A stretch of DNA of 21,865 nucleotides from a virus. The notes under the pieces are model-generated. The model was not told where the DNA came from and ran no database searches. It saw only the letters and a program-made list of their open reading frames with translations. This document shows positions 1 through 16,858 of this stretch, one piece after another. A program made the translations under genes and the position numbers. Position 1 is the stretch's first letter. Each line of letters opens with the position of its first letter. Location: the IMG/VR virus record IMGVR_UViG_3300031772_007047, positions 1 through 21,865 of that record; one strand, written 5' to 3'.

Positions 1-11
1 AAGCCCTTACG

Positions 12-320
12 ATGTTTTTCGAAGACCCAGAAGCATCTATAGCTTGTTTTTCAGGCTCAATAACAGAAAGTCTTACCCACCCACGGGGGATTAAAAAAGT
101 TATTCCCTATTTAATCAAAGCTTCTATAGTCGGTTATATGCTGGCGACTTTTGTAAGTCCGGCTATTGAAGAAAGATTTAGGCTCACAAAAAATGAGGCC
201 ATAGCGACCTCATTTATTATCGGTTATGCCGGAATTCGAATCTTGGCCGCAGCTGAGCGTATAGCCGAAAAAGAGCTAGGACGCCGACTAGGAAAAGATA
301 AAGAAAATGATATTAGTTAA
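12..320 (+). CDS. Holin-like small membrane protein
   Basis: The 102-aa product has two hydrophobic stretches, at about residues 31-50 and 63-80, separated by a charged turn (EERFRLTKNE). It ends in a highly charged tail rich in Lys, Glu and Arg. Size, two membrane segments and a charged C-terminus fit a phage holin that permeabilises the cytoplasmic membrane at lysis, but no signature motif makes this certain. The frame is open to the left edge of the window, so the true start could lie upstream; the ATG at 12 is the first available one. No endolysin is adjacent inside the window. Its stop overlaps by 8 bases the end of the convergent small gene at 313-450. It could instead be another small virion or membrane protein. 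Confidence 0.6.
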   Translation: MFFEDPEASIACFSGSITESLTHPRGIKKVIPYLIKASIVGYMLATFVSPAIEERFRLTKNEAIATSFIIGYAGIRILAAAERIAEKELGRRLGKDKENDIS

Positions 321-450
321 TAACTACAGACTCATCAAAAATATCAGTTGAGTTAGCTTCAGGTTCGGTTGTCTGAGAGACAGGAGTTGACTCTTTAGTT
401 TCCTCTTTTTTGAGGTTCTCTTTGCGAGGGCGGTAATCGAGCGAGCGCAT
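313..450 (-). CDS. Small hydrophilic protein, 45 aa, unknown function
   Basis: This leftward frame runs from the ATG at 450 to the TAA at 313-315. The product begins MRSLDYRPRK, continues with a Lys/Glu-rich stretch, then a Ser/Thr/Pro/Glu-rich part, and ends in an acidic tail (IFDESVVIN). The composition looks like a real small protein. It lies downstream of the terminator at 481-508, so it needs readthrough or its own promoter, and I see no clear promoter. The frame stays open upstream of the ATG through the terminator hairpin, so a longer form starting at a non-ATG codon cannot be excluded. The function is unknown. Confidence 0.5.
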   Translation of the reverse strand: MRSLDYRPRKENLKKEETKESTPVSQTTEPEANSTDIFDESVVIN

Positions 451-480
451 AATGCGAATCCGTTTAACAAAAGGATAGCA

Positions 481-508
481 AGAAAAAAGCCCTCGTAAAG
501 GAGGGCTT
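481..508 (-). terminator. Rho-independent terminator of the leftward portal operon
   Basis: On the minus strand a hairpin of 7-8 base pairs (AGCCCTC paired with GAGGGCT, six-base loop) is followed directly by TTTTTTCT. It lies about 23 bases beyond the stop of the gene ending at 531. It is the clearest intrinsic terminator in the window and marks the end of the leftward structural operon. Confidence 0.9.
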
Positions 509-530
509 GTTTAAGTTTTACTTGAGCTTA

Positions 531-1442
531 TCAAGCAGGATCCATGAACAGCAGTTTGCTGCGCATAGTCTCAGGGCCCATTTGACTCAGGTAGCGCCAG
601 GCATTTTCAGGGCTGCGGTTCATAACATCACTGAACTGCTCCCACTGTTGCTGGGGTGCGGGACCATTGGCTACACCGCCTGCATTAGCAGGAGGAGCAG
701 GCATGTCATAACGAGGCTGATAAGCCTGAGCTTGTTGCTGGTAGTTGGCATTGTCGCCGTCGATGTCCACGGGGACAACCTCCGTGAAATAACGATCAGT
801 GTAGTTAGCCAGATGGTCGGGATCGATCAAGATGGTCTGCATCGCGTCGTGGCGAGCAGACAGTACATCCATTTTCTGAGCTTGGTCAATGAGGAGATCC
901 TCAAGCGAGCAAGCGTACTGGTTCAGGATGCCAGGAGCTTCGATCCCGAAGTGGTTAACGACCTCGGCGGTTACGGGGCTTACGCTCGTTTGCCGGGCCG
1001 TAGAAGTTTGCGAGGAAGTTTGGGTCGGTGAAGCGTTGGTAAACGAGGTCGGCGCTACCTGCTGTTCCTGGTAAGCCCAGGGCTGGGCCTGTAAATTCTG
1101 ACTGCTCAGTTGAGTAGCCGGTTCCGTAGCCACCTGGTAAGGCGACTGTTGAACCTGGCTGAGGGACTGAGAGTTCACCTGGGACAGCACCCGTTCCAGG
1201 GAACCCATCGCTGCTTCCCAAGGATTGTTCGGGAAGGATTGCGACGTTAACTGGTTGAACTGGTTGCTGGTAGAAGGGGCCGTACCCTGTTGTACCTGCG
1301 ACGGCGGTTGGGCCGTAGGTACCGAAGCTACCGCCGGGGTAGAGGTTTGCGCCACCCATTGTGGGTAAGCGGTTGAGCCCTGGTCTGAGGACGCCACCGG
1401 GGAGACCGGGCTCGGGGTTGAAGCTTGGATCTGCTGGCTCAT
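531..1442 (-). CDS. Gln/Ser/Pro-rich protein downstream of the portal; C-terminal half well supported, start uncertain
   Basis: The frame from the ATG at 1442 encodes 303 aa. Residues 1-160 are Ser/Thr/Pro/Gln-rich and overlap, in another frame, the end of the portal-like gene. Residues 161-303 lie outside the overlap and read as an ordinary helical protein (segments such as CSLEDLLIDQAQKMDVL and DPDHLANYTDRYF). In the overlap 10 of 17 prolines use CCG, whereas none of 12 in the unique part do. The N-terminal half may therefore be only a shadow of the portal frame. However, no ATG, GTG or TTG occurs in this frame between the portal stop and codon 191 (about 872). Possible starts are 1442, the ATG at 1208 (after GGGAAG) and the GTG at 1133. 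Position next to the portal would suit a scaffold or head protein, but nothing proves it. Confidence 0.65.
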   Translation of the reverse strand: MSQQIQASTPSPVSPVASSDQGSTAYPQWVAQTSTPAVASVPTAQPPSQVQQGTAPSTSNQFNQLTSQSFPNNPWEAAMGSLERVLSQVNSQSLSQVQQSPYQVATEPATQLSSQNLQAQPWAYQEQQVAPTSFTNASPTQTSSQTSTARQTSVSPVTAEVVNHFGIEAPGILNQYACSLEDLLIDQAQKMDVLSARHDAMQTILIDPDHLANYTDRYFTEVVPVDIDGDNANYQQQAQAYQPRYDMPAPPANAGGVANGPAPQQQWEQFSDVMNRSPENAWRYLSQMGPETMRSKLLFMDPA

Positions 1443-3168
1443 AGCTACCCGAATAAGTTAGTTCTTCCGCGAGGTGGTCGAAGGTCCTGTAAAGAAGCGG
1501 AGTTATGTTCAGTCTAGGATCAGCCGCAAGGGGCTGATTAGGCGCAAGGGGATGCGGCGACTGCAACATCTGGGTTAATAATACCATAAATTGTTGCATA
1601 GCTGATTGAGTTTGTTGCACCATGCGGAAGGGAAAACCCTTCAACATATCAGCTCTCTCAGAGTCAGTTTTTTCAGGAAAAAGGAATTTAAGAGCGTCAA
1701 CGCTATCCACACCAAGCTCTTGCAAGTTACGAACAACGATTGACTTTTGGTTAATGTCATACGCTGTGTCTTCGTAAACATCACCCTGAAACCTATAAGT
1801 AACAGCGCGATCTCCATCCTCAGGTAGCCCAATAACCCCAGGAGGGACTTTATTTTCTTGCAGAGCAAGTTGAATGGTTTCAGTAACTTTAGCTTCGTAA
1901 CGAGTTACAGTTTTTTGATATTTTTCAAAATTTTCTTCTGTTTGTTCTTTTGGGAGACTTGGTTCTTTGAGCCCAGCAGCTGCAATAAACGATTCACGGA
2001 AAATAATTTCTTGGTGATAGATCATCATCTCTAAGAGACGATTGAATCCATAAGTTAGGAAGCTTTTATTTTTACGAAGAGCCGTGGCTTGGGCACGGCC
2101 CATCAAACCTTTAATTTCTGTGGCGGTAGCGCCAGCTGAAATTGAAATCTCATCAACACCACCTAGGGCCGTACGGATCTCTTCTCTTAAAAGAAGTGTG
2201 TAACGGTTCATGTCGCCGTTAACCGGATCCGGGGTCATATAACCCACGCGGTCGGACGGTTCAACGTTGGCAATAATGCGCGGAACACGCAAACCGCCGC
2301 CCATTCCAGCCCCAAAAGGCTCACTTACGCGAGTCGAAGGACTATCAAGACCAGAAAATCCGCTTTGACTGCTGATTGTCGGCCTAAAAGTACTTCCGGC
2401 ATCACTGGCTTCGACCAGATCGCTGCGGGGGCGCGAACTAATCAGCGTGGGGTTGCCAAAAAACTCAATATTTTTAGCAATGTTACGAATTAACTCGTCA
2501 TGGAGCACAAGTTGCTCCATAAACGGATCAAAATCACCTTCGCCTTCTGTGCCACTAGTGTTCGGCTTGTTTAAAACCTCAACAGCAGGGATAAAACCGA
2601 GTGTGTTAGGCCGTTTCTTGACTGGAGATAAGACAGAACCAGGTTCTAGATCAAAACTGAGCTCAGTGTCGGTTTCTACTTCACTAATTTCATCTGCTGT
2701 AATAGTTAAACGTACATATCGTTTATTTTGACCATAACTATTACTAGGCAACCCAAGACTTGCGTGCTTAACCTTATAGCTGTAAACAATAATTACTTCC
2801 TCAACCTCACCATTTAGATCGTGATACACACGATATTGATTTTTATTGAAAAAATAAATTTGATACTTAAGTTTTGGATTGGGGCGGAAATAAAACAACC
2901 CACAACCGTCTATTAAAAAATTGCGAATAATTGCAGGAAAACGAATATCTAATTTATTTAAAGAAATAACGTCATCTAAAAAACGAGTACGACTTTTGTA
3001 CGTATCTTGATCACAATAGAAAGTAAGACCCTTCTTAATCATCAGAAGGATCATTTGCTGAAGATGGCTTAAAACAACCATAGTCGATGACTGGTTGCTT
3101 CGATCTTGAGTGCGAGACGCCTCTAAGATCTCGTTAAACCTTTTCCTAGTCTCAGTCGAGCTGGCCAT
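955..3168 (-). CDS. Portal-like protein (737 aa)
   Basis: Portal proteins form the dodecameric ring at the capsid vertex through which terminase pumps DNA. Support here is a long N-terminal alpha/beta region, a central helical part containing GGVDEISISAGATATE and GLMGRAQATALRKN followed by a long helix with paired Met residues (typical of portal stem/wing regions), and position in the same operon as the large terminase. The C-terminal roughly 170 residues form a Gly/Pro/Tyr-rich low-complexity tail ending in a basic cluster (RKPRNRRGR), longer than in most portals. Codons in the tail stay normal for this genome (CCA and CCC proline, GGT and GGC glycine), so the frame looks genuine to its stop. 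The tail overlaps the next gene by about 490 bases. The start ATG lies 36 bases after the preceding stop. Confidence 0.78.
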   Translation of the reverse strand: MASSTETRKRFNEILEASRTQDRSNQSSTMVVLSHLQQMILLMIKKGLTFYCDQDTYKSRTRFLDDVISLNKLDIRFPAIIRNFLIDGCGLFYFRPNPKLKYQIYFFNKNQYRVYHDLNGEVEEVIIVYSYKVKHASLGLPSNSYGQNKRYVRLTITADEISEVETDTELSFDLEPGSVLSPVKKRPNTLGFIPAVEVLNKPNTSGTEGEGDFDPFMEQLVLHDELIRNIAKNIEFFGNPTLISSRPRSDLVEASDAGSTFRPTISSQSGFSGLDSPSTRVSEPFGAGMGGGLRVPRIIANVEPSDRVGYMTPDPVNGDMNRYTLLLREEIRTALGGVDEISISAGATATEIKGLMGRAQATALRKNKSFLTYGFNRLLEMMIYHQEIIFRESFIAAAGLKEPSLPKEQTEENFEKYQKTVTRYEAKVTETIQLALQENKVPPGVIGLPEDGDRAVTYRFQGDVYEDTAYDINQKSIVVRNLQELGVDSVDALKFLFPEKTDSERADMLKGFPFRMVQQTQSAMQQFMVLLTQMLQSPHPLAPNQPLAADPRLNITPLLYRTFDHLAEELTYSGSYEPADPSFNPEPGLPGGVLRPGLNRLPTMGGANLYPGGSFGTYGPTAVAGTTGYGPFYQQPVQPVNVAILPEQSLGSSDGFPGTGAVPGELSVPQPGSTVALPGGYGTGYSTEQSEFTGPALGLPGTAGSADLVYQRFTDPNFLANFYGPANERKPRNRRGR

Positions 3169-3204
3169 CTACACACATTACGGAAAATTAAGACTTGAAA
3201 AAAA

Positions 3205-3363
3205 TCACTTGCGGAAGGTAGCTTCCTTGGCTTTTTGAGCTTTAGCTTTAGCCCGTTTGCGAGTTTCCATAGATCCAGTGAGTTCCTGACCACTAGGAGT
3301 CTTTTTAGACTCACGGTCAGCTGCAAACTTCTCAAGGACCTCGGCAGGCATTTTGTCAGACAT
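3205..3363 (-). CDS. Small basic helical protein, 52 aa
   Basis: The ATG at 3363 overlaps the TGA of the GT17 gene by 8 bases, a typical translational coupling. The product begins MSDKMPAEVLEKFAADRE and ends in a Lys/Ala-rich helix (RKRAKAKAQKAKEATF). A different, longer frame over the same bases encodes Leu/Arg-rich sequence with no protein character, so this shorter frame is preferred. The very basic C-terminal helix would suit nucleic-acid or capsid binding, which is only inference. It sits between the GT17 and portal genes on the same strand. Confidence 0.65.
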   Translation of the reverse strand: MSDKMPAEVLEKFAADRESKKTPSGQELTGSMETRKRAKAKAQKAKEATFRK

Positions 3364-4168
3364 CTGGCAAAAGATACGCTTTGACTCGTTCCAGTTTAAC
3401 CGCTTCCTTAGGCAAATTTTCGATCGGATACGAGGTTAACAGATGATCTTCACGACCAAGCATGTCAGTATTACCTTCTTTAGGTTCAAACTCATCACAG
3501 AGTTTCTGAACTTCAGGACGATCCCAGATGTAGTACTCAGCGATAGACCGCAATTTAGTCTTACGCTTATCAGCGTCACCCATCCAACTTAAATGCCAAC
3601 CAGCGTCCCTGTTGCCAAAATAACGATTGTTCTGCGTGGCACGCATAGAGGATAACGTACCGAGTTGTTTTAAACGTCCTACTGTACTAACCACACCGCA
3701 TCGCCAATCAAAAAGCTCATTTTTTGGCGAAACTAGCTGCCGATCAGCTCGTCCGTAGTGCATAGACATGCTCAAACGGACAGTCTTTTCCTCTTCCTCT
3801 TTGACTACTTCTAAGAGTTCTGGAAACTTAGCTGGGTTTGCAATTTCATCACAATCCGAACAAATAAAAACTGTGTCGTCAGGCATCATATGCAGTCCGA
3901 CACCTAAAGCATCCCGTTGCCCTCGTTCACGAATCCAAGGATCGGGAGCTTCCTCAATAGAAGGTAGTTCAACGTGAAGAACCTGAATTTTCTCCTCAGG
4001 TAAACCAAGCTCACGAATAGTGTCTAAGCACGTAAATGGCTTCTCCTCTCCACGGTGTGTACGGTTAGCATCCGTAATCAAAAAACCATCCACGTGATCT
4101 TCGAGCGCTCTGATCCTGAGTTCAAGGATTTCGCGCTCGTTAAAGTAACAGAAGCAATCTAAAAGCAC
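3356..4168 (-). CDS. Glycosyltransferase family 17-like protein
   Basis: The 270-aa product matches the pattern of GT17 enzymes (the family of eukaryotic beta-1,4-N-acetylglucosaminyltransferase III, also common in bacteria and phages). The start reads LLDCFCYFNEREILELRI, followed by VDGFLITDANRTHRG at about 26-40, the metal/nucleotide-sugar motif SDCDEI at 104-109, and GWHLSWMGD at 190-198. All are family hallmarks. It should transfer a sugar from a nucleotide donor; the acceptor is unknown. The start is a GTG placing the family N-terminus exactly at residue 1, with no clear ribosome-binding site. The 3' end overlaps the 52-aa gene. It is one of several scattered glycan genes in this phage. 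Confidence 0.88.
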   Translation of the reverse strand: MLLDCFCYFNEREILELRIRALEDHVDGFLITDANRTHRGEEKPFTCLDTIRELGLPEEKIQVLHVELPSIEEAPDPWIRERGQRDALGVGLHMMPDDTVFICSDCDEIANPAKFPELLEVVKEEEEKTVRLSMSMHYGRADRQLVSPKNELFDWRCGVVSTVGRLKQLGTLSSMRATQNNRYFGNRDAGWHLSWMGDADKRKTKLRSIAEYYIWDRPEVQKLCDEFEPKEGNTDMLGREDHLLTSYPIENLPKEAVKLERVKAYLLPDV

Positions 4169-7478: not shown

Positions 7479-8651
7479 ATGGCAAAAATTCTCTGGTACG
7501 GCGACATCCTTTCAAACACAGGATTCGCCAGAGTTACACACAGCATTCTTGAGCACTTAGCTGACACACACGAAGTTGTAGCGTTTGGCATTAACTACAA
7601 CGGAGATCCTCACGACTTACCCTTCAAGGTCTACCCTGCAGGTACTCAAAACCCATCCGATCGCTTTGGTATCGGGCGCCTACCTCAGGTAGTACAGACG
7701 GAAAAACCAGATTTTATCATTTGCTTAAACGATATCTGGGTTGTCAACCAAGTCTGGGAACGAGTTCACCTCCTCAAAGACTCGCTCAACTTTAAATTTA
7801 TTGCTTATTTTCCAGTCGACTCAGCATATTACGTAAGTTCTATGCTCGATTACATAAAGGATTGGGATTTTGCAATTACTTTTACAGTGGAGCAGGCTCA
7901 TAGGCTGATGGCTCAGGGCGTCCAACCACGACTGCTTGGAGTTGTGCCGCACGGCTTGGATCAAGGCAAGTTCTTCCCTATTGAACAAAACGAAGCCCGC
8001 AGAGCTCTACGACTCCCAGAAGACAAATTTATTGTTCTTAACGCAAATAGAAACCAACCTCGTAAACAAATTGACTTAACAATTAAAGCGTTTGTCGAGT
8101 TTGCAGTAGATAAACCTGATACCCTCCTCTATCTCCACATGAGCGAAAAAGATCTTGGATGGGACGTACACGCAATATTTGACACTGAAATGAAACGCCG
8201 GGGACTATCTTCTGACAACCGCATGATTATGACAACGGCAAATATTGACTACATTAATGCGCCACCAGATGAGTTACTAAATAAAATTTATAACGCATGT
8301 GACGTGGGAATCAATACAGCCAACGGAGAAGGCTGGGGACTAATTCCATTCGAGCACGCTTCATGCAAAAAGCCACTTGTGTTGCCTAACCACACGTCTT
8401 TTGGAGACATCTGGAAAGGAAGCGCTTTGCTTGCTGATGTTGCCGCCTGGGTATACGACAAAGACCTTAGCGTAGAGAGAGGTATTGTCGATGTTAGTGA
8501 TGCTGCCGCAAAACTAACAAAACTATACGCAGACAAATCTTTTTATAACAACGTGGCCGAGTCATGCTTCAAGGTCACGCAGAATCCTGCCTATCGCTGG
8601 GACCACATTTCTGAAGCATTCAACAAAGCCATGGAGGAGCTGAGCAAGTGA
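7479..8651 (+). CDS. Glycosyltransferase family 4-like protein (GT-B fold)
   Basis: The 390-aa product has the GT-B architecture. Its N-terminal domain starts with a beta strand and SNTGFARVTHSIL at 12-24. A linker PHGLD at 157-161 and NANRNQPRKQIDLTIKAF at 188-205 match the start of the C-terminal donor-binding domain. The donor signature GEGWGLIPFEHA at 283-294 corresponds to the GT4 E-x7-E region. It should transfer a sugar from a nucleotide donor, probably in the host cytoplasm. It is the first gene of a two-gene rightward cassette within leftward genes, and its stop overlaps the next start by GTGA. The acceptor is unknown. Confidence 0.92.
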   Translation: MAKILWYGDILSNTGFARVTHSILEHLADTHEVVAFGINYNGDPHDLPFKVYPAGTQNPSDRFGIGRLPQVVQTEKPDFIICLNDIWVVNQVWERVHLLKDSLNFKFIAYFPVDSAYYVSSMLDYIKDWDFAITFTVEQAHRLMAQGVQPRLLGVVPHGLDQGKFFPIEQNEARRALRLPEDKFIVLNANRNQPRKQIDLTIKAFVEFAVDKPDTLLYLHMSEKDLGWDVHAIFDTEMKRRGLSSDNRMIMTTANIDYINAPPDELLNKIYNACDVGINTANGEGWGLIPFEHASCKKPLVLPNHTSFGDIWKGSALLADVAAWVYDKDLSVERGIVDVSDAAAKLTKLYADKSFYNNVAESCFKVTQNPAYRWDHISEAFNKAMEELSK

Positions 8652-9733
8652 CACAATTTCATCGCTATCGCACCTATCACAACAGCGTAGCTTGTCGAGC
8701 TTTTGCTCCCACAGAGTCTGGCTTCCCCTCAGTTTTTGATCAAGCTTATGAGATAGGAGGAACGTTTACCAAAATTACATCGGGGTTACCAGCAGACAGC
8801 TTTGCTAATTTCAGCCCCTGTGTGATCCAGCACCGAGGCGCAACTCTGATCGCGTGGCGGTCACAACCCAAACACTTCGTGTTCAGACACGACATGAAGT
8901 ACTTCTATTATAACAATACTCCTACAGATATCTATATTGGTCAGATGTTAACCGATGACACAATTGTAGCTCCTCGAAAACTAATCAACAAACCACACCG
9001 ACTCAGTTACGAAGATCCTCGTATTTTTGTGTCACCCGATGACAATCTGATGTGTCAATTTGTAACAAGTACTTACGCAACAAAGTGGGACACAACAAAA
9101 CACAAAATTATAAAAACACCGAAAGTTTGTACAGGAGCTGTAGATGAATTTGGGAACTTAGTCGATAAATTTTATCCACCAATAGGACTTAACTTAGAGG
9201 AAGGTAAAGCGGAGAAGAACTGGTGTTTCTTTTCTGATTTTCAAAAACTAAGGCTTCTTTATTCAACACAACCAATCGTCATCAAAACGCCAGGCGAGTC
9301 TGACAAAATTATCGACTCGTCTTGCTTGAAACAAGTGACTGGTGAGCACCCAACATTTAACTCAACAGCACCAATTCTTGTAGAAGACGAATGGTTGGTT
9401 TTCTATCATTGGAAGTTCATGGCTCACGAGATTGATAGACGTCCTTATCTGATGTACGGCCTTGGTGCTTACACATTAGATAAAGACTTAACTCGCGTCA
9501 CGAAGATGCTCAATGAACCTCTTTTTATAGGTTCTACAAACGATGACCTAGTTACGTGGACTGACCCCGTAGGTAACGACATCTCGAACCAACCAGCTTG
9601 TATCTTGCCTTTCGGTTGTTTTATGGATCAAAACGAAGATTTAGTTATGTCACTAGGCGTGAACGACTACTTCATGGGTATTTTTAGAACACCTGTGCTC
9701 AACGTGCTCTCGTTACTAGAACCTGTTGGGTAA
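8648..9733 (+). CDS. GH130-like five-bladed beta-propeller protein (glycosidase/phosphorylase-like)
   Basis: The 361-aa product shows blade motifs of the GH130/GH43/GH32-like propeller group: FSPCVIQHRGATLIAWRS at 55-72, EDPRIF at 122-127, EKNWCFF at 189-195, and STAPILVEDEWLVFYHWK at 239-256. Known GH130 enzymes are mannoside phosphorylases or hydrolases, but the specific catalytic activity cannot be read here. The start is GTG, overlapping the GT4 stop (GTGA), with AGGAG upstream at a good distance. Pairing with a GT4 enzyme suggests building and trimming of one glycan. It ends 3 bases before the convergent leftward gene. It could be a binding propeller without catalysis. Confidence 0.65.
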   Translation: MTQFHRYRTYHNSVACRAFAPTESGFPSVFDQAYEIGGTFTKITSGLPADSFANFSPCVIQHRGATLIAWRSQPKHFVFRHDMKYFYYNNTPTDIYIGQMLTDDTIVAPRKLINKPHRLSYEDPRIFVSPDDNLMCQFVTSTYATKWDTTKHKIIKTPKVCTGAVDEFGNLVDKFYPPIGLNLEEGKAEKNWCFFSDFQKLRLLYSTQPIVIKTPGESDKIIDSSCLKQVTGEHPTFNSTAPILVEDEWLVFYHWKFMAHEIDRRPYLMYGLGAYTLDKDLTRVTKMLNEPLFIGSTNDDLVTWTDPVGNDISNQPACILPFGCFMDQNEDLVMSLGVNDYFMGIFRTPVLNVLSLLEPVG

Positions 9734-9736
9734 GTC

Positions 9737-10267
9737 TCAACTTTTTTCTTCTTTTTCGATGGTCGACCACACAACCATCGAGGCATCTTCTAGTAACGAA
9801 TATATAGTAGGAGCGTCTTCAAAGCTGTTCATTAGCTCACGTATACAGCGGTCAGCGCCAGCTAGCAACAAACCTCGGCGATCTAAGCCATCTGTAATTT
9901 GCCTGACCACTTGAATGTGAGAACGAATTTCTTTTTGAAGAACAGCAATTTTAGTTGCGGCTGTTGCGTGGTCCAACATGCCCGTAAGGGTCATTTGCCT
10001 TACGTTGTGCAGGTCGATCTTTAAAGAGTCAATCTCAATAAGAAGTATCTTACGAAGATCTTCCTTGGGATACTTTTCCTGCACCCAGGCCGTAAGATCA
10101 GAAATTGAACCTGTATAACTTGGCTTTAAAAACCGAGCATATAGATAAGCCTCAATATCACTCGCGGCATTTTTTGCGTAGTGTTTAAACGCATCCTGCT
10201 GAGACTTGTCTAAGGAACTAAGCCAAGTTCCAACAAAAGTTGAATCTCCAATAGTTGATTTAATCAC
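9737..10267 (-). CDS. Helical protein, 176 aa, unknown (virion or packaging accessory)
   Basis: The product is largely alpha-helical and charged, with predicted helices around KSQQDAFKHYAKNAASDIEA and a long helix containing IDSLKIDLHNVRQMTL, ending in an acidic Lys/Glu tail. The start is GTG, forming a GTGA overlap with the stop of the preceding gene; the next in-frame Met lies far inside. It is the last gene of the leftward structural operon before the rightward cassette. Size and helicity would allow a small terminase or a neck component, but no motif supports either. Confidence 0.8.
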   Translation of the reverse strand: MIKSTIGDSTFVGTWLSSLDKSQQDAFKHYAKNAASDIEAYLYARFLKPSYTGSISDLTAWVQEKYPKEDLRKILLIEIDSLKIDLHNVRQMTLTGMLDHATAATKIAVLQKEIRSHIQVVRQITDGLDRRGLLLAGADRCIRELMNSFEDAPTIYSLLEDASMVVWSTIEKEEKS

Positions 10268-11001
10268 GCAAACATTCGTGTGCCGGCGAGAGCCGTATTA
10301 ACTCCAAACTGTTTTAAAGCTAACTGACCTTTGGTAGCCGCTTTTGTTCGTGCTAAGTCACCAAGTGTCCGCACTTTGTCTAACTGAGCTGCATTTTCAA
10401 ACTGCTGGGCACCCAAAGCCAACAAACCTTCATTTTGTGCGCGAGTTTGAGCAATTTTATTAAGCGTTTCAGCTTGGTTTTTAGCTACGTCACCACGCAG
10501 CTCCTCTTGAAACGAACGAACTTTAATGTTTGTAGTGCCAAGTTGATTGGCAAGTTGATTTTGTCCAGCCAGAGATGCTGAACCAGCTTGTGCTAGAAAC
10601 TGAGGTGCTTGAAGCTCCGTGGCCAACTTAGCTTGACCTAAGCCATATAGAGTGTCGAGGCCCTTGCCAGATGCGTAACCAGCTACAGAAGATTGCAGCT
10701 GAGCATCCTTTTGAGCCCTCTGGAGTGCTTCAGTCAATATACTTAATTGAGCCGAAGCTTTAGTCGTAGCTTCTTGCCCAACTGCACCAGCTAAAGCGCC
10801 CTGAAGCAGGCTCACTCCCTGAAAAGCAGCAGTCAGAGGGTTGTTTTGCGCAGCCAATTGCGCTGCATATTGCGCGTAAGCATCAGTAGATTGACTGCCG
10901 CTGCTTTTTTTACCTCCAAGAAGAGAAGGTAGTAAGCTCCCACCGACACCTGTGGCTAAGCCTCCAAGAACTGCTGGTAGAAGAACTGCTGGTAACGCCA
11001 T
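10264..11001 (-). CDS. Putative DNA-ejection / internal virion protein (245 aa)
   Basis: The N-terminus is hydrophobic and Gly/Leu-rich for about 30 residues (MALPAVLLPAVLGGLATGVG), then a Lys/Ser linker (GGKKSSGSQSTD), then a long Ala/Gln/Leu helical region with coiled-coil-like spacing to the end. Internal ejection proteins of short-tailed phages such as P22 and T7 commonly combine membrane-active segments with helical bodies, which is the basis for the call. It is the third of three adjacent genes with the same arrangement. A tandem 15-base repeat lies in its hydrophobic start. It could instead be a small tape-measure-like or neck protein. Confidence 0.6.
   Translation of the reverse strand: MALPAVLLPAVLGGLATGVGGSLLPSLLGGKKSSGSQSTDAYAQYAAQLAAQNNPLTAAFQGVSLLQGALAGAVGQEATTKASAQLSILTEALQRAQKDAQLQSSVAGYASGKGLDTLYGLGQAKLATELQAPQFLAQAGSASLAGQNQLANQLGTTNIKVRSFQEELRGDVAKNQAETLNKIAQTRAQNEGLLALGAQQFENAAQLDKVRTLGDLARTKAATKGQLALKQFGVNTALAGTRMFA
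10966..10995. repeat. Tandem 15-bp direct repeat in the start of the 245-aa gene
   Basis: AAGAACTGCTGGTAG and AAGAACTGCTGGTAA lie head to tail and match at 14 of 15 bases. On the coding (minus) strand they duplicate the hydrophobic peptide unit LPAVL. The copies keep the frame, as expected from slippage in a repeat-tolerant segment. Confidence 0.85.
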
Positions 11002-11003
11002 GA

Positions 11004-11627
11004 TTAACTAATGGTGGATGAAGGAGTACCAAAGCTGGATCGACCTTGGCCGGCAAGAGAAGCGCCGCCTTGAAGAACATTGGGATTAGGCATACCAGCG
11101 GTATAAGCCAGTTGCATCATCCCTAAACCAAGCGTGGCATCTCGATTAATTTGCGCTTCAGTGATGCCACGCCACGCGGCAATCGTATCACCCTCGATCT
11201 TTCGGCGAGTTAGTTCACGGGTCTGCTCCATACCCGCAATACGATTAAGCTCTTGGGATCGCTCCCAGTTTGCTTGATCGATTGAAGCCCGATCAGCATA
11301 TAGCCGCGGGTCTAAGTTAGCGAGTGCAATTTTTGCTTGAAGCTCGTTAGACCCCTTGAGCTGCTCCAGTAAAGCGGCTGCTTGAGCTCCACCAGCTCCC
11401 GACTGCAAGCGAATTTGCTCTAAAGCAAATCTTGCTTTTTCACGCTCAAGCGCTAAGTCACGCTGAAATTGAGAATTTTTTGCAAATTCTTCAGCTTTAC
11501 GCTGATTAATTTTTTCTTCAGGGGAGTCTCCGCCAAAAGCACGCTCTAGAGCAATAGCCCCCGCAGTAGTGACACCTACCCCAAGAGCATTCTTTAACAG
11601 GCCCGCAAGCATCGGATTTATTGCCAT
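11004..11627 (-). CDS. Putative DNA-ejection / internal virion protein (207 aa)
   Basis: A hydrophobic Gly/Ala-rich N-terminus (LAGLLKNALGVGVTTAGAIA) is followed by a long charged helix (about residues 38-75, rich in Glu, Lys, Arg and Gln). A further helical body contains an aligned ARG/ASN/GLN-rich section, and the tail is Gly/Ser-rich. The layout matches its two neighbours. It starts at ATG 11627, 5 bases after the preceding stop, and is followed 2 bases later by the next gene, so all are one transcript. The role is inferred from composition and context only. Confidence 0.6.
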   Translation of the reverse strand: MAINPMLAGLLKNALGVGVTTAGAIALERAFGGDSPEEKINQRKAEEFAKNSQFQRDLALEREKARFALEQIRLQSGAGGAQAAALLEQLKGSNELQAKIALANLDPRLYADRASIDQANWERSQELNRIAGMEQTRELTRRKIEGDTIAAWRGITEAQINRDATLGLGMMQLAYTAGMPNPNVLQGGASLAGQGRSSFGTPSSTIS

Positions 11628-14209: not shown

Positions 14210-14980
14210 TTAAAAACCTAAGTGCTTACGGCGGACAAACTCTAGATCGTATGTGGTGAAATCTATTGGAAGCTCAGAAACATTGAAAGGTGTCTTATAA
14301 GTCTCGCCTTCGACATGTGCTTGCCACGCCTCGCTCCATTTCATATGGAGGTACTTCTTATTAAGCTCGTGCGCTACGTGGACAGCTGTCTGAAGTTGTG
14401 GCTCAGATCGCCAAGTTTGAGAGCCGTCTGAATAATCTTTACGTGAACCGTGGTAGTACTCGTGATCCAAATTTAAAACTCGTTTTAAATCATCGTGTAT
14501 AAACCTCATTCCATAATCCATATCTTCACAGTATCCCGGATATAAATTTTCATCAAATAAACCATACTTAGTCACAACCCAATCTTTTAACAAAAAGATA
14601 TCCCAACCCCCACCGGATCCATGGACAATTCCAATCTCTTCATCCTGGGCTTTCTCATTCATTTCTTGGAGAAACCCAGGCTCAAACATAATGTCGTGAT
14701 TGGAGATAACCCAATATGGCGCCCGCATAAAGCATTTAATAATCAAGTTCCATGCGCCAGAGCACCCAACATTTGCTGGCATATGCGTAACGTGAATCTG
14801 TTTTACAAACGGATTCGACAACTTACGAACACTTTCTACCGCGTCCGTAATCTGACCCCTACCGTTGTTGTTAAATACGACAAAATTATCGACTGGATAG
14901 TCAATGCTCATAAAGAGCCTGTGTAACCAGTAAGGGTTATTAACAATCGCTGTACCCAATACAGGGATAGATTCGCGCAT
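14210..14980 (-). CDS. Glycosyltransferase family 2-like protein
   Basis: The 256-aa product has a GT-A fold pattern. The N-terminal strand IPVLGTAIVNNPYWLHRL leads to VVFNNNG, then the GT2-like PANVGCSGAWN at 68-78 and the metal-binding region SNHDIMFEPGFL at 93-104, where HD replaces the usual DxD. Later LYPGYCEDMDYGMRFI at about 151-166 carries the ED catalytic-base pattern of rhamnosyl/GT2 enzymes. It should transfer a sugar to a surface or virion glycan. The ATG at 14980 follows the NrdR-like gene stop by 12 bases. The acceptor is unknown. Confidence 0.85.
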   Translation of the reverse strand: MRESIPVLGTAIVNNPYWLHRLFMSIDYPVDNFVVFNNNGRGQITDAVESVRKLSNPFVKQIHVTHMPANVGCSGAWNLIIKCFMRAPYWVISNHDIMFEPGFLQEMNEKAQDEEIGIVHGSGGGWDIFLLKDWVVTKYGLFDENLYPGYCEDMDYGMRFIHDDLKRVLNLDHEYYHGSRKDYSDGSQTWRSEPQLQTAVHVAHELNKKYLHMKWSEAWQAHVEGETYKTPFNVSELPIDFTTYDLEFVRRKHLGF

Positions 14981-14992
14981 GGGGCTGTTACT

Positions 14993-15442
14993 TTATGGCA
15001 ATATACTACCAGAAATTATCGCTTGATACAGGTTACAGCCTTGAGCGTCTTCAGTCAGAGCCTCTGGTATATCAAAGGAACAACCAAAAGATAACAAGTG
15101 AACGCAGTCGTCGCAAGGAATCTTACCGGGTATTACTTTTGACTCAGCTTGTAGGGGGGTTGTTCTTAGAGGAGGCGCAATATCTAAAAAGATTTGTTGA
15201 AGTTTATTAATTTTAGATCTGAGAGTTCTTAACTCATCATACAGATCAGAAGTCACTTCAAAAGTAGTGTACGCGTAATCACACGAAGAGCATGAATATC
15301 TCCTGCGCACACCATCAAATACTTTACGGCTTTCTTTGACTCTTGATGTATGCGCCTCGCAACTGGGACACTCTTTAAGCTGACGGTACTCGTAGAGACT
15401 GCGAAGTTGATTGTCGTCGTGTTGTTTCTTTTGAGCTGCCAT
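14993..15442 (-). CDS. NrdR-like zinc-ribbon protein
   Basis: The 149-aa product begins with a charged N-terminus and then has a treble zinc ribbon: CPSC at about 25-28, the NrdR-like stretch RVKESRKVFDGVRRRYSC, a second CSSC, and YAYTTFEV. Bacterial NrdR has the same ribbon (CPxC, R-rich strand, CxxC, FTTFE) followed by an ATP-cone, which is absent here. Instead a coiled-coil-like helix and a second Cys cluster (IPCDDCVHLLSFGC) follow. It may bind DNA as a regulator. The ATG at 15442 is chosen because an upstream in-frame ATG at 15481 would lie inside the tRNA. It has no Shine-Dalgarno; the leader is 14 bases after the tRNA 3' end. Confidence 0.75.
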   Translation of the reverse strand: MAAQKKQHDDNQLRSLYEYRQLKECPSCEAHTSRVKESRKVFDGVRRRYSCSSCDYAYTTFEVTSDLYDELRTLRSKINKLQQIFLDIAPPLRTTPLQAESKVIPGKIPCDDCVHLLSFGCSFDIPEALTEDAQGCNLYQAIISGSILP

Positions 15443-15456
15443 TTGATTGTTGTTAA

Positions 15457-15538
15457 TACTGCAGGTGGGACTTGAACCCACATGAGATAAACTCAGCGCA
15501 TTTTAAGTGCGCAGCGTATGCCATTCCGCCACTGCAGC
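15457..15538 (-). tRNA. tRNA-Leu (anticodon UAA)
   Basis: The minus strand folds as a class II tRNA of 82 bases. It has a 7-bp acceptor stem GCTGCAG/CTGCAGT (with a G-U first pair), a D-arm with GCG/CGC stem, an anticodon stem GCGCA/TGCGC with loop CTTAAAA (anticodon TAA), a 14-base variable arm with TGAG/CTCA, a T-arm GTGGG TTCAAGT CCCAC, and discriminator A. CCA is not encoded. It reads UUA codons, common in the AT-rich phage genes. It lies between two leftward genes and must be cut out of their transcript. Confidence 0.95.
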
Positions 15539-15561
15539 GGCTTGTGGACTGTAGCAATAAA

Positions 15562-15777
15562 TCAAACGTCTGGATCGTTTGTTTCAGATGTTTTCCAAGT
15601 TTCATCCCCCGGAAGTGGTTCTGTACCGTACTCAAACGTATCGTAGTTCTCGTCGTTACGAGGATCCTCTACAAACACATAGTGCGTAGTCTCAACTTCA
15701 ATAAACTCTTGTAAGTTAGACAGAGCTTGGGAGAGGAGCCTTTCTTCCTCAGGCGTCAGTTTTTCAGGTGTGGTCAT
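15562..15777 (-). CDS. Small acidic protein, 71 aa, unknown
   Basis: The product begins MTTPEKLTPEEERLLSQALS, a helix, and ends in an Asp/Glu-rich tail (VFVEDPRNDENYDTFEYG). No family is recognised. The ATG at 15777 is preferred; a TTG two codons upstream overlaps the stop of the membrane-protein gene at 15780-16052. It lies just before the tRNA-Leu on the same strand. The high negative charge recalls DNA-mimic or inhibitor proteins, but this is only a possibility. Confidence 0.65.
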   Translation of the reverse strand: MTTPEKLTPEEERLLSQALSNLQEFIEVETTHYVFVEDPRNDENYDTFEYGTEPLPGDETWKTSETNDPDV

Positions 15778-15779
15778 AG

Positions 15780-16052
15780 TCAACGATAAATAGGGACAAA
15801 AGCGTTAGCAACACGGCCACACTGCCAGTCATCATACTTTCCGTATTTTTGCAATTGTGCTTGCATACATGTGGTTTTGATGGCTGTGTACTCCTGCATT
15901 CGCTGTCGCTCTATCCGACTGTACTTAATCCACTCGGGAACAAACGACAAAAACACAAAAGTAAAAAAGATTAAAACAAAATAAGTGGGGCCTTTCCAAG
16001 CGACGGCCGCCTGAATGGCGTGTTTGGAGTCAATGTTGATGTTGGTAGTCAT
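15780..16052 (-). CDS. Small single-pass membrane protein, 90 aa
   Basis: Residues about 22-42 (PTYFVLIFFTFVFLSFVPEW) form one strong transmembrane segment, preceded by a polar N-terminus and followed by a basic helix (KYSRIERQRMQEY) and two late Cys residues. The topology resembles small phage inner-membrane proteins such as spanin-like or superinfection-exclusion proteins, without a specific motif. The first gene after the promoter at 16076-16104, it starts at the ATG at 16052; a GTG three codons upstream is also in frame. No Shine-Dalgarno is seen. Confidence 0.7.
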   Translation of the reverse strand: MTTNINIDSKHAIQAAVAWKGPTYFVLIFFTFVFLSFVPEWIKYSRIERQRMQEYTAIKTTCMQAQLQKYGKYDDWQCGRVANAFVPIYR

Positions 16053-16075
16053 GTGAGTCACTCAGTGACACGACA

Positions 16076-16104
16076 AGCATACACACCAAACCGGGTCCTG
16101 TCAA
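16076..16104 (-). promoter_or_regulatory. Sigma70-like promoter for the leftward operon
   Basis: On the minus strand TTGACA (16099-16104, perfect -35) is followed after exactly 17 bases by TATGCT (16076-16081, 4 of 6 to TATAAT). The predicted start lies near 16069, giving a short leader of about 17 bases before the ATG at 16052. It is the best promoter match seen and would drive the leftward genes down to 9737. Confidence 0.65.
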
Positions 16105-16144
16105 GAAAACCCTGCTACGATGCTGACATACCCAAGTTTTGTCC

Positions 16145-16858
16145 ATGACCACGACAAACAAGCCCAGCTTCAAAGAGCTTATGGCCCAGCTGGGCGAAGA
16201 AACCGAGACAAGCGCCCCCGTAGTTCAGATCCAAGGCAAAAAGAAACTTGACGACCGGTACAAATTTAACCAGGGCTGGTACGACGCTCTACTCAATACC
16301 GATATGGTGCTTTGCACCCACAATGAAGCTGCAGAACTACGTCTAGAGCCGACCAAGGAACGTCAAGTTGTCGAAATTGGCGTTTACGAAGGCGCATCCA
16401 GCTGTTTTTGGTCGGATTTTTATCTTTCACATCCCGAGTCTCGCCTAATTTCAATTGATCCATTTACTGGAAGTACCGAACACCACGAAACCCCTGAAAA
16501 CTACCCGGAACTGCCGAATATTGAGCTGATCGCTCGCGGAAATATCGCCAAATCAGAGAACGCAGCCAAAATTGAAATTATCAAAGGCTGTAGTTGGGAT
16601 GTTTTTCCTGAACTGAATCGCAGGAATCAAGGCAAACCTTGGATTGATCTCCTCTATATTGATGGCGCACACGACTCTACCTCTGTCGCACGGGATATCA
16701 CGTTGTTTGTTCCTATGGTCAAGACTGGAGGTATTGTTATTTTTGATGATTATGGTCACCCTGATGTGAAGCGAGGTGTCGATATGGCGCTTAATGCTTT
16801 TGCTTCAATGGAGTTAGCTGTGTTTACAGGGTGGCAACTCGTAGCAAAAGTAGCTTGA
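16145..16858 (+). CDS. Class I SAM-dependent methyltransferase (Methyltransf_24-like)
   Basis: The 237-aa product has motif I QVVEIGVYEGASSCFW at 74-89, ISIDPFTGS at about 102-110, the acidic motif LLYIDGAHDSTSVARDI near the middle, and GGIVIFDDYGH near the C-terminal third. These are the marks of the CmcI/O-methyltransferase-like group seen in glycan and antibiotic gene clusters. The N-terminal 35 residues are a Thr/Gln/Lys-rich extension. The ATG at 16145 is preferred over a TTG two codons earlier; no Shine-Dalgarno is visible. It is transcribed away from the promoter at 16076-16104. The substrate is unknown, but a sugar is likely given the many glycan genes. Confidence 0.85.
   Translation: MTTTNKPSFKELMAQLGEETETSAPVVQIQGKKKLDDRYKFNQGWYDALLNTDMVLCTHNEAAELRLEPTKERQVVEIGVYEGASSCFWSDFYLSHPESRLISIDPFTGSTEHHETPENYPELPNIELIARGNIAKSENAAKIEIIKGCSWDVFPELNRRNQGKPWIDLLYIDGAHDSTSVARDITLFVPMVKTGGIVIFDDYGHPDVKRGVDMALNAFASMELAVFTGWQLVAKVA

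Follow-up and report, generated by a model that had tools for sequence, protein, structure and literature searches.

A conserved overlap at the end of a phage portal gene very likely encodes half of a second, scaffold-like protein

Dual coding in two frames of one strand is generally known among viral overlapping genes (PMC7017920, PMC8227390), and 84% of the overlaps in viral reference genomes are shorter than 50 nt (PMC7017920). Several described systems of tailed phages share features with the arrangement reported here. The lambda Rz/Rz1 genes and other embedded spanin pairs (PMC5295617) are same-strand genes for two unrelated proteins, read in different frames from their own start signals. 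In lambda C/Nu3, the scaffold arises from a start within the head gene that precedes it, in the same frame as C, and the T7 order of gp8 portal, gp9 scaffold, and gp10 capsid places an acidic protein of ~300 aa between the portal and the major capsid protein. Out-of-frame overlaps of ~500 nt between two head-assembly genes are not known to be common in tailed phages and are, to our knowledge, unusual.

We analyzed a stretch of viral DNA of 21,865 nt (IMGVR_UViG_3300031772_007047; hereafter, the window), in which the gene for a portal-like protein overlaps a second gene on the same strand (Table 1). The window resembles the spanin pairs in that one strand of a tailed phage appears to encode two unrelated proteins in different frames, each with a putative start signal of its own. 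However, spanins are lysis proteins, with Rz1 embedded in Rz, whereas the window has two putative head-assembly genes that share a terminal overlap of ~500 nt. The start inside a preceding head gene is reminiscent of Nu3, from which the second gene differs in frame. The gene order recalls that of T7, although T7 has no comparable out-of-frame overlap and no sequence homology to the second protein was found there. Synechococcus phage S-EIV1 (KJ410740) carries the same gene pair, the portal-like AHV82224 and AHV82225, with the same overlap (554 nt) and an ATG led by a Shine–Dalgarno motif for the second gene. Compared with viral overlaps in general, those of this type are long (446–641 nt) and are kept in 382 loci.

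In the overlap, frame 0 encodes the Gly/Pro-rich tail of the portal and frame +1 the N-terminal residues of the second protein, which are rich in Ser, Gln, and Pro. The second gene is convergent with a holin-like gene (window 3-320, plus strand; phrog_2359, E 1.1e-5). An antisense ORF of 174 aa (507-1031, plus strand) lies across the end of the overlap. Since relatives in the window's clade conserve no antisense frame across the overlap, this ORF is likely spurious. Elsewhere in the window, two glycosyltransferases (families 17 and 2) and one methyltransferase are found among the structural genes, at 3356-4168, 14210-14980, and 16139-16858, and a protein with an NrdR-like zinc ribbon is encoded at 14993-15481 on the minus strand.

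Table 1. Features of the overlap locus, in window coordinates.
Feature	Position	Strand	Evidence or remark
Gene for portal-like protein, 737 aa	3168..955	minus	PHROG matches
Overlapping second gene, 303 aa, pI 4.27; orphan family, putative scaffolding protein (inferred)	1442..531	minus	
Dual-coded overlap, 488 nt, 162 codons	955..1442	minus	Both frames constrained; both homologous across clades
ATG start of the second gene	1440..1442	minus	ATG in 155/155 loci of the window's clade
In-frame TAA, 18 nt 5' of the ATG, closing the second frame upstream	1458..1460	minus	
NPWEAAMGSLERVL motif (second protein), within the overlap; helix predicted at 74-89	1185..1226	minus	
FGIEAPGILNQYA motif, where the unique half of the second protein begins	912..950	minus	
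C-terminal three-helix region of the second protein, residues 263-300	543..656	minus	AlphaFold2 and invariant residues
Block 5' of the ATG with reduced synonymous change, candidate cis element	1443..1590	minus	
TGGTATTATTA, extended -10-like; candidate internal promoter for the second gene (only suggestive)	1576..1586	minus	
Terminator-like hairpin 3' of the second gene	487..508	minus	AAGCCCTCCTTTACGAGGGCTT then TTTTCTTGCT

The first-pass annotation had described a two-frame overlap of 488 bases and 162 codons, which held exactly. It had also noted that CCG makes up 10 of the 17 proline codons of the second frame within the overlap and none of the 12 beyond it, and had concluded that proline codons favor the portal frame. 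The counts held; the conclusion did not, since within the overlap the portal frame shows just as strong a skew: CCA accounts for 12 of 23 proline codons there and for 4 of 32 in the portal core. The codons of either frame are distorted by the other, and proline codon choice favors neither. As both frames are skewed, codon usage does not separate an older from a younger frame. The lack of a usual start downstream, the third claim, was confirmed: no ATG, GTG, or TTG is present in the second frame from the portal stop to Met190 (window 875-873). By itself, the open frame in the window is only weak, suggestive evidence. When synonymous portal codons were permuted, the second frame stayed open in 2186 of 20000 shuffles (11%), and when portal codons were resampled with portal-core usage, it was open in 353 of 20000 (1.8%).

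Relatives were sought in IMG/VR, GTDB genome contigs, and a phage collection, and define four clades: the window's clade, the clade of S-EIV1 (42% portal identity), a mainly marine clade (46–49% portal-core identity to the first two), and a fourth that lies close to S-EIV1 (56% identity). Among the clades, portal identity falls to about 45%. All 382 resolvable loci (155, 81, 64, and 82; 18 cut-off loci were excluded) have an open +1 frame that begins at a start codon 446–641 nt ahead of the portal stop and continues beyond it. Some of these loci are near-identical, and the distinct overlap sequences number 87, 68, 52, and 65. Of the six frames compared in the window's and S-EIV1 clades, the +1 frame downstream of the start is alone in being conservatively open. 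In simulated evolution under portal constraint alone, 2–10% of tips were open on average, and in none of 800 replicates were all tips open. The open frame is thus conserved across relatives far beyond chance.

The overlap products, compared between clades as profiles, are homologous in both frames. Of the six clade pairs, one gives only a weak match in the second frame (E 0.017); controls with shuffled columns yielded no comparable match. The overlap is older than the split of the four clades. No relative without the overlap was found in genome contigs or in four portal searches of viral contigs. These searches rank close relatives first, and an outgroup lacking the overlap may therefore exist unseen. 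As all relatives found carry the overlap, no homologue shows which of the two frames is the older.

For the analysis of selection, the non-overlapping portal core served to build trees, on which changes were counted by parsimony and classed by their effect in each frame. The alternative-frame dN/dS compares second-frame-altering with second-frame-silent changes among portal non-synonymous changes; a transition weight of 3 was assumed in the counts, so that absolute rates are approximate. A ratio of about 1 or above is expected for a non-coding frame. In the overlap, the ratio is 0.51 [0.41-0.64], 0.39 [0.31-0.48], 0.67 [0.58-0.75], and 0.47 [0.37-0.58] in the four clades, with 1.13-1.19, 1.02-1.06, 1.25-1.41, and 0.97-1.00 in the upstream controls. 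Per available site, second-frame-silent changes are 1.5–2.6 times as frequent as second-frame-altering ones. The portal frame is also constrained in the overlap, with dN/dS of 0.46, 0.71, 0.86, and 0.70 and all intervals below 1, and portal third-position divergence is halved, from 0.50 upstream to 0.24. Purifying selection thus acts on both frames. The first-pass annotation had proposed this comparison of rates and held that protein sequence conserved in both frames would support dual coding; both lines of evidence were obtained.

Constraint is unevenly distributed along the overlap. It is strongest for the second frame in the first 20 codons after ATG 1442, where the alternative-frame dN/dS is 0.04. 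A 20-codon stretch at NPWEAAMGSLERVL has alternative-frame values of 0.15–0.16 and portal-frame values of about 0.9–2.8. Dominance therefore alternates: the second frame rules around the NPWEAA helix, where the portal tail drifts, and the portal frame holds the neighboring stretches. Pro74 and Ala78 of the NPWEAAMGSLERVL motif do not vary among 60 sequences of the four clades; Phe165, Gly166, Pro170, Leu173, Asn174, and Tyr176 of the FGIEAPGILNQYA motif are likewise invariant in the four clades, and Trp267, Pro278, and Lys296 of the C-terminal region are invariant as well.

The start codon of the second gene is present at each clade's own position in all 382 loci. In the window's clade, the alignment places the ATG within the nearly invariant TCGGGYAGCTATGAGCCAGCAGATCC, and nearly all loci keep the upstream TAA at an identical offset. 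A Shine–Dalgarno-like motif precedes the start in 227 of 227 loci of the three other clades (S-EIV1 has AAGGAGATGAGTTATG and the marine clade AAGGAGTTAAGTTACAGTG, for example) and in 0 of 155 loci of the window's clade. The block immediately 5' of the ATG has a synonymous rate of 0.117 vs. 0.35 further upstream. In each of the four clades, synonymous change is reduced over the 60 codons that lead up to the start, most weakly in the marine clade. A hidden additional ORF in this block was considered and rejected, as no other conserved open frame was found there in any frame in the window's and S-EIV1 clades. The sequence CTGGTATTATTA is exact in most loci of the window's clade and mismatched only in the first base in the window. 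A sigma-70 consensus scan of window 400-3400 gave no site, and the internal promoter at TGGTATTATTA is for this reason no more than a possible candidate. The RNA around the start and leader shows no covariation support for structure and unremarkable energies (z-scores -1.1 to +0.9).

The upstream gene is assigned to a portal protein by homology to portal families. Its best match is phrog_20475, a 'virion structural protein' (2.6e-162); matches to phrog_64 portal protein reach 4e-6 in the window and up to 6.9e-10 in relatives, and those to phrog_104 portal up to 6.9e-6. A search of PDB sequences with the portal gave no match, and its fold model was unusable (low confidence, mean pLDDT 41).

The second protein belongs to an orphan family. 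No PHROG match was obtained for any of 60 members, Pfam gave only sporadic weak matches, none of them convincing, and no solved structure in the PDB matched. The family is acidic (pI 4.05–4.27). The AlphaFold2 model has low overall confidence (mean pLDDT 55); it predicts a disordered N-terminal half except for the NPWEAA helix, and helices at 156-220 and 263-300, with pLDDT block means of 78–94 for C-terminal residues 261-300. The only significant match in a fold search of a viral structure library was a 133-residue protein, most probably the truncated S-EIV1 homologue of the second protein itself. In S-EIV1 and one contig of the window's clade, the portal gene is followed by the second gene, a further gene, and the gene for the major head protein, which was recognized by phrog_1357 (E 1.4e-19 and 3.2e-22). 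The capsid gene was not found in the window itself. Acidity, disorder, the helical C-terminus, and position incline us, by a modest margin, toward a capsid scaffolding protein. Both function and expression are inferred here. As no homology to known scaffolds was found in sequence or fold, 'scaffold-like' is the proper label at present.

One objection to dual coding is that the true start of the downstream gene lies later, either within the overlap or past the portal stop, the earlier open frame being accidental. Standard gene callers choose such a start, the gene begins 23 nt past the portal stop in the public S-EIV1 record, a single sequence would be open by chance in 2–11% of cases, and the window's clade lacks a Shine–Dalgarno motif at 1442. 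Against this stand the frame open in every one of the loci, the Shine–Dalgarno-led starts at the equivalent place in three clades, and the absence of a usual start in the window between the portal stop and Met190. A later start is also hard to reconcile with second-frame constraint that peaks directly after ATG 1442, and we regard it as very unlikely. The first-pass annotation had left overprinting and a later start as its two options, and had named stops in the Ser/Gln-rich frame of homologues, or a start mapped after the portal stop, as grounds for refutation. To the extent that sequence permits, this was tested on the 382 loci, none of which had such a stop, and overprinting is the option supported. 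A different explanation for the conservation would be a DNA or RNA element, such as a packaging site, an RNA structure, or a promoter, rather than a second protein. Reduced synonymous change does extend from the ATG 60–80 codons in the 5' direction, through a region that has no second frame. Within the overlap, however, the signal is frame-specific, with silent changes in the second frame in excess; stops are excluded in that frame only, the products align between clades, and RNA folding is without support. This explanation is all but excluded.

Ribosomal frameshifting from the portal into a portal fusion protein is compatible with the +1 relation of the frames, and examples of programmed frameshifting are known from structural genes of phages. 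It can be virtually ruled out, judging from stops, starts, and constraint and not from slippery sites: an in-frame stop lies a few codons 5' of the conserved start codon in the clades examined, three clades have Shine–Dalgarno motifs ahead of the start, and constraint on the second frame sets in at the start codon. Harder to dismiss is the view that dual coding is real and the second protein is a portal-associated core, head-completion, or ejected internal protein. The absence of homology to any known scaffold, the occurrence of long Gln/Ser/Pro-rich regions in other virion proteins, and the further gene between the second gene and the capsid gene speak for it. On the other hand, acidity, size, a helical C-terminus, and a position between portal and capsid genes match scaffolds such as T7 gp9 and P22 gp8, and we consider a non-scaffold role the weaker of the two assignments.

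Comparative genomics thus shows that the open frame and its start are conserved, that purifying selection acts on both frames, and that both products are homologous between clades. On this basis, and without transcript, ribosome-profiling, or proteomic data, the 488 nt are very likely a true dual-coding overlap; this degree of confidence applies to dual coding and not to the scaffold step. In the proposed mechanism, the portal mRNA would be read in frame 0 to give a portal protein with a flexible Gly/Pro-rich tail, while a second ribosome entry at ATG 1442 would read the +1 frame into a separate acidic protein of 303 residues, whose N-terminal half would be encoded by the same bases as the portal tail. 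Internal initiation may be aided by an upstream element, possibly an internal promoter. A bolder reading, which we offer only as a possibility and only as a whole, is that the assembly partner of the portal is built into the portal gene, whose tail region doubles as the N-terminal half of the scaffold; that the conserved element 5' of the scaffold start (promoter-like TGGTATTATTA in the window's clade) would allow scaffold production from within the portal gene in large excess of the 12-copy portal; and that this arrangement has been kept since before the four-clade split.

The orphan family has remained hidden from annotation because of limits on same-strand overlap, Prodigal permitting at most 60 bp (PMC2848648). 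In S-EIV1, AHV82225 is given 133 aa, whereas the conserved frame has 325 aa, so that 192 residues are missing. Other features of this genome were observed in passing. Its major capsid gene is apparently misannotated (KJ410740 60784-62010, corresponding to 15245-16471 of the analyzed S-EIV1 stretch): the plus-strand ORF at 15320-16471 of the analyzed S-EIV1 stretch encodes a 383-aa phrog_1357 major head protein recorded only as its C-terminal part (AHV82228), with the hypothetical minus-strand AHV82227 placed opposite the N-terminal part. The S-EIV1 terminase large subunit (8541-11081 of the analyzed stretch) contains an intein (Pfam Intein_splicing, residues 202-526), and the window terminase (7429-5906, 507 aa) is much shorter.

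The overlap is fixed in every relative found and adds an orphan protein family. With hundreds of genomes and alternating dominance of the two frames, this widespread group of phages related to S-EIV1 constitutes a natural test bed for two proteins sharing one sequence. Since S-EIV1 is part of a cultured host–phage pair, dual coding at this locus is directly testable.
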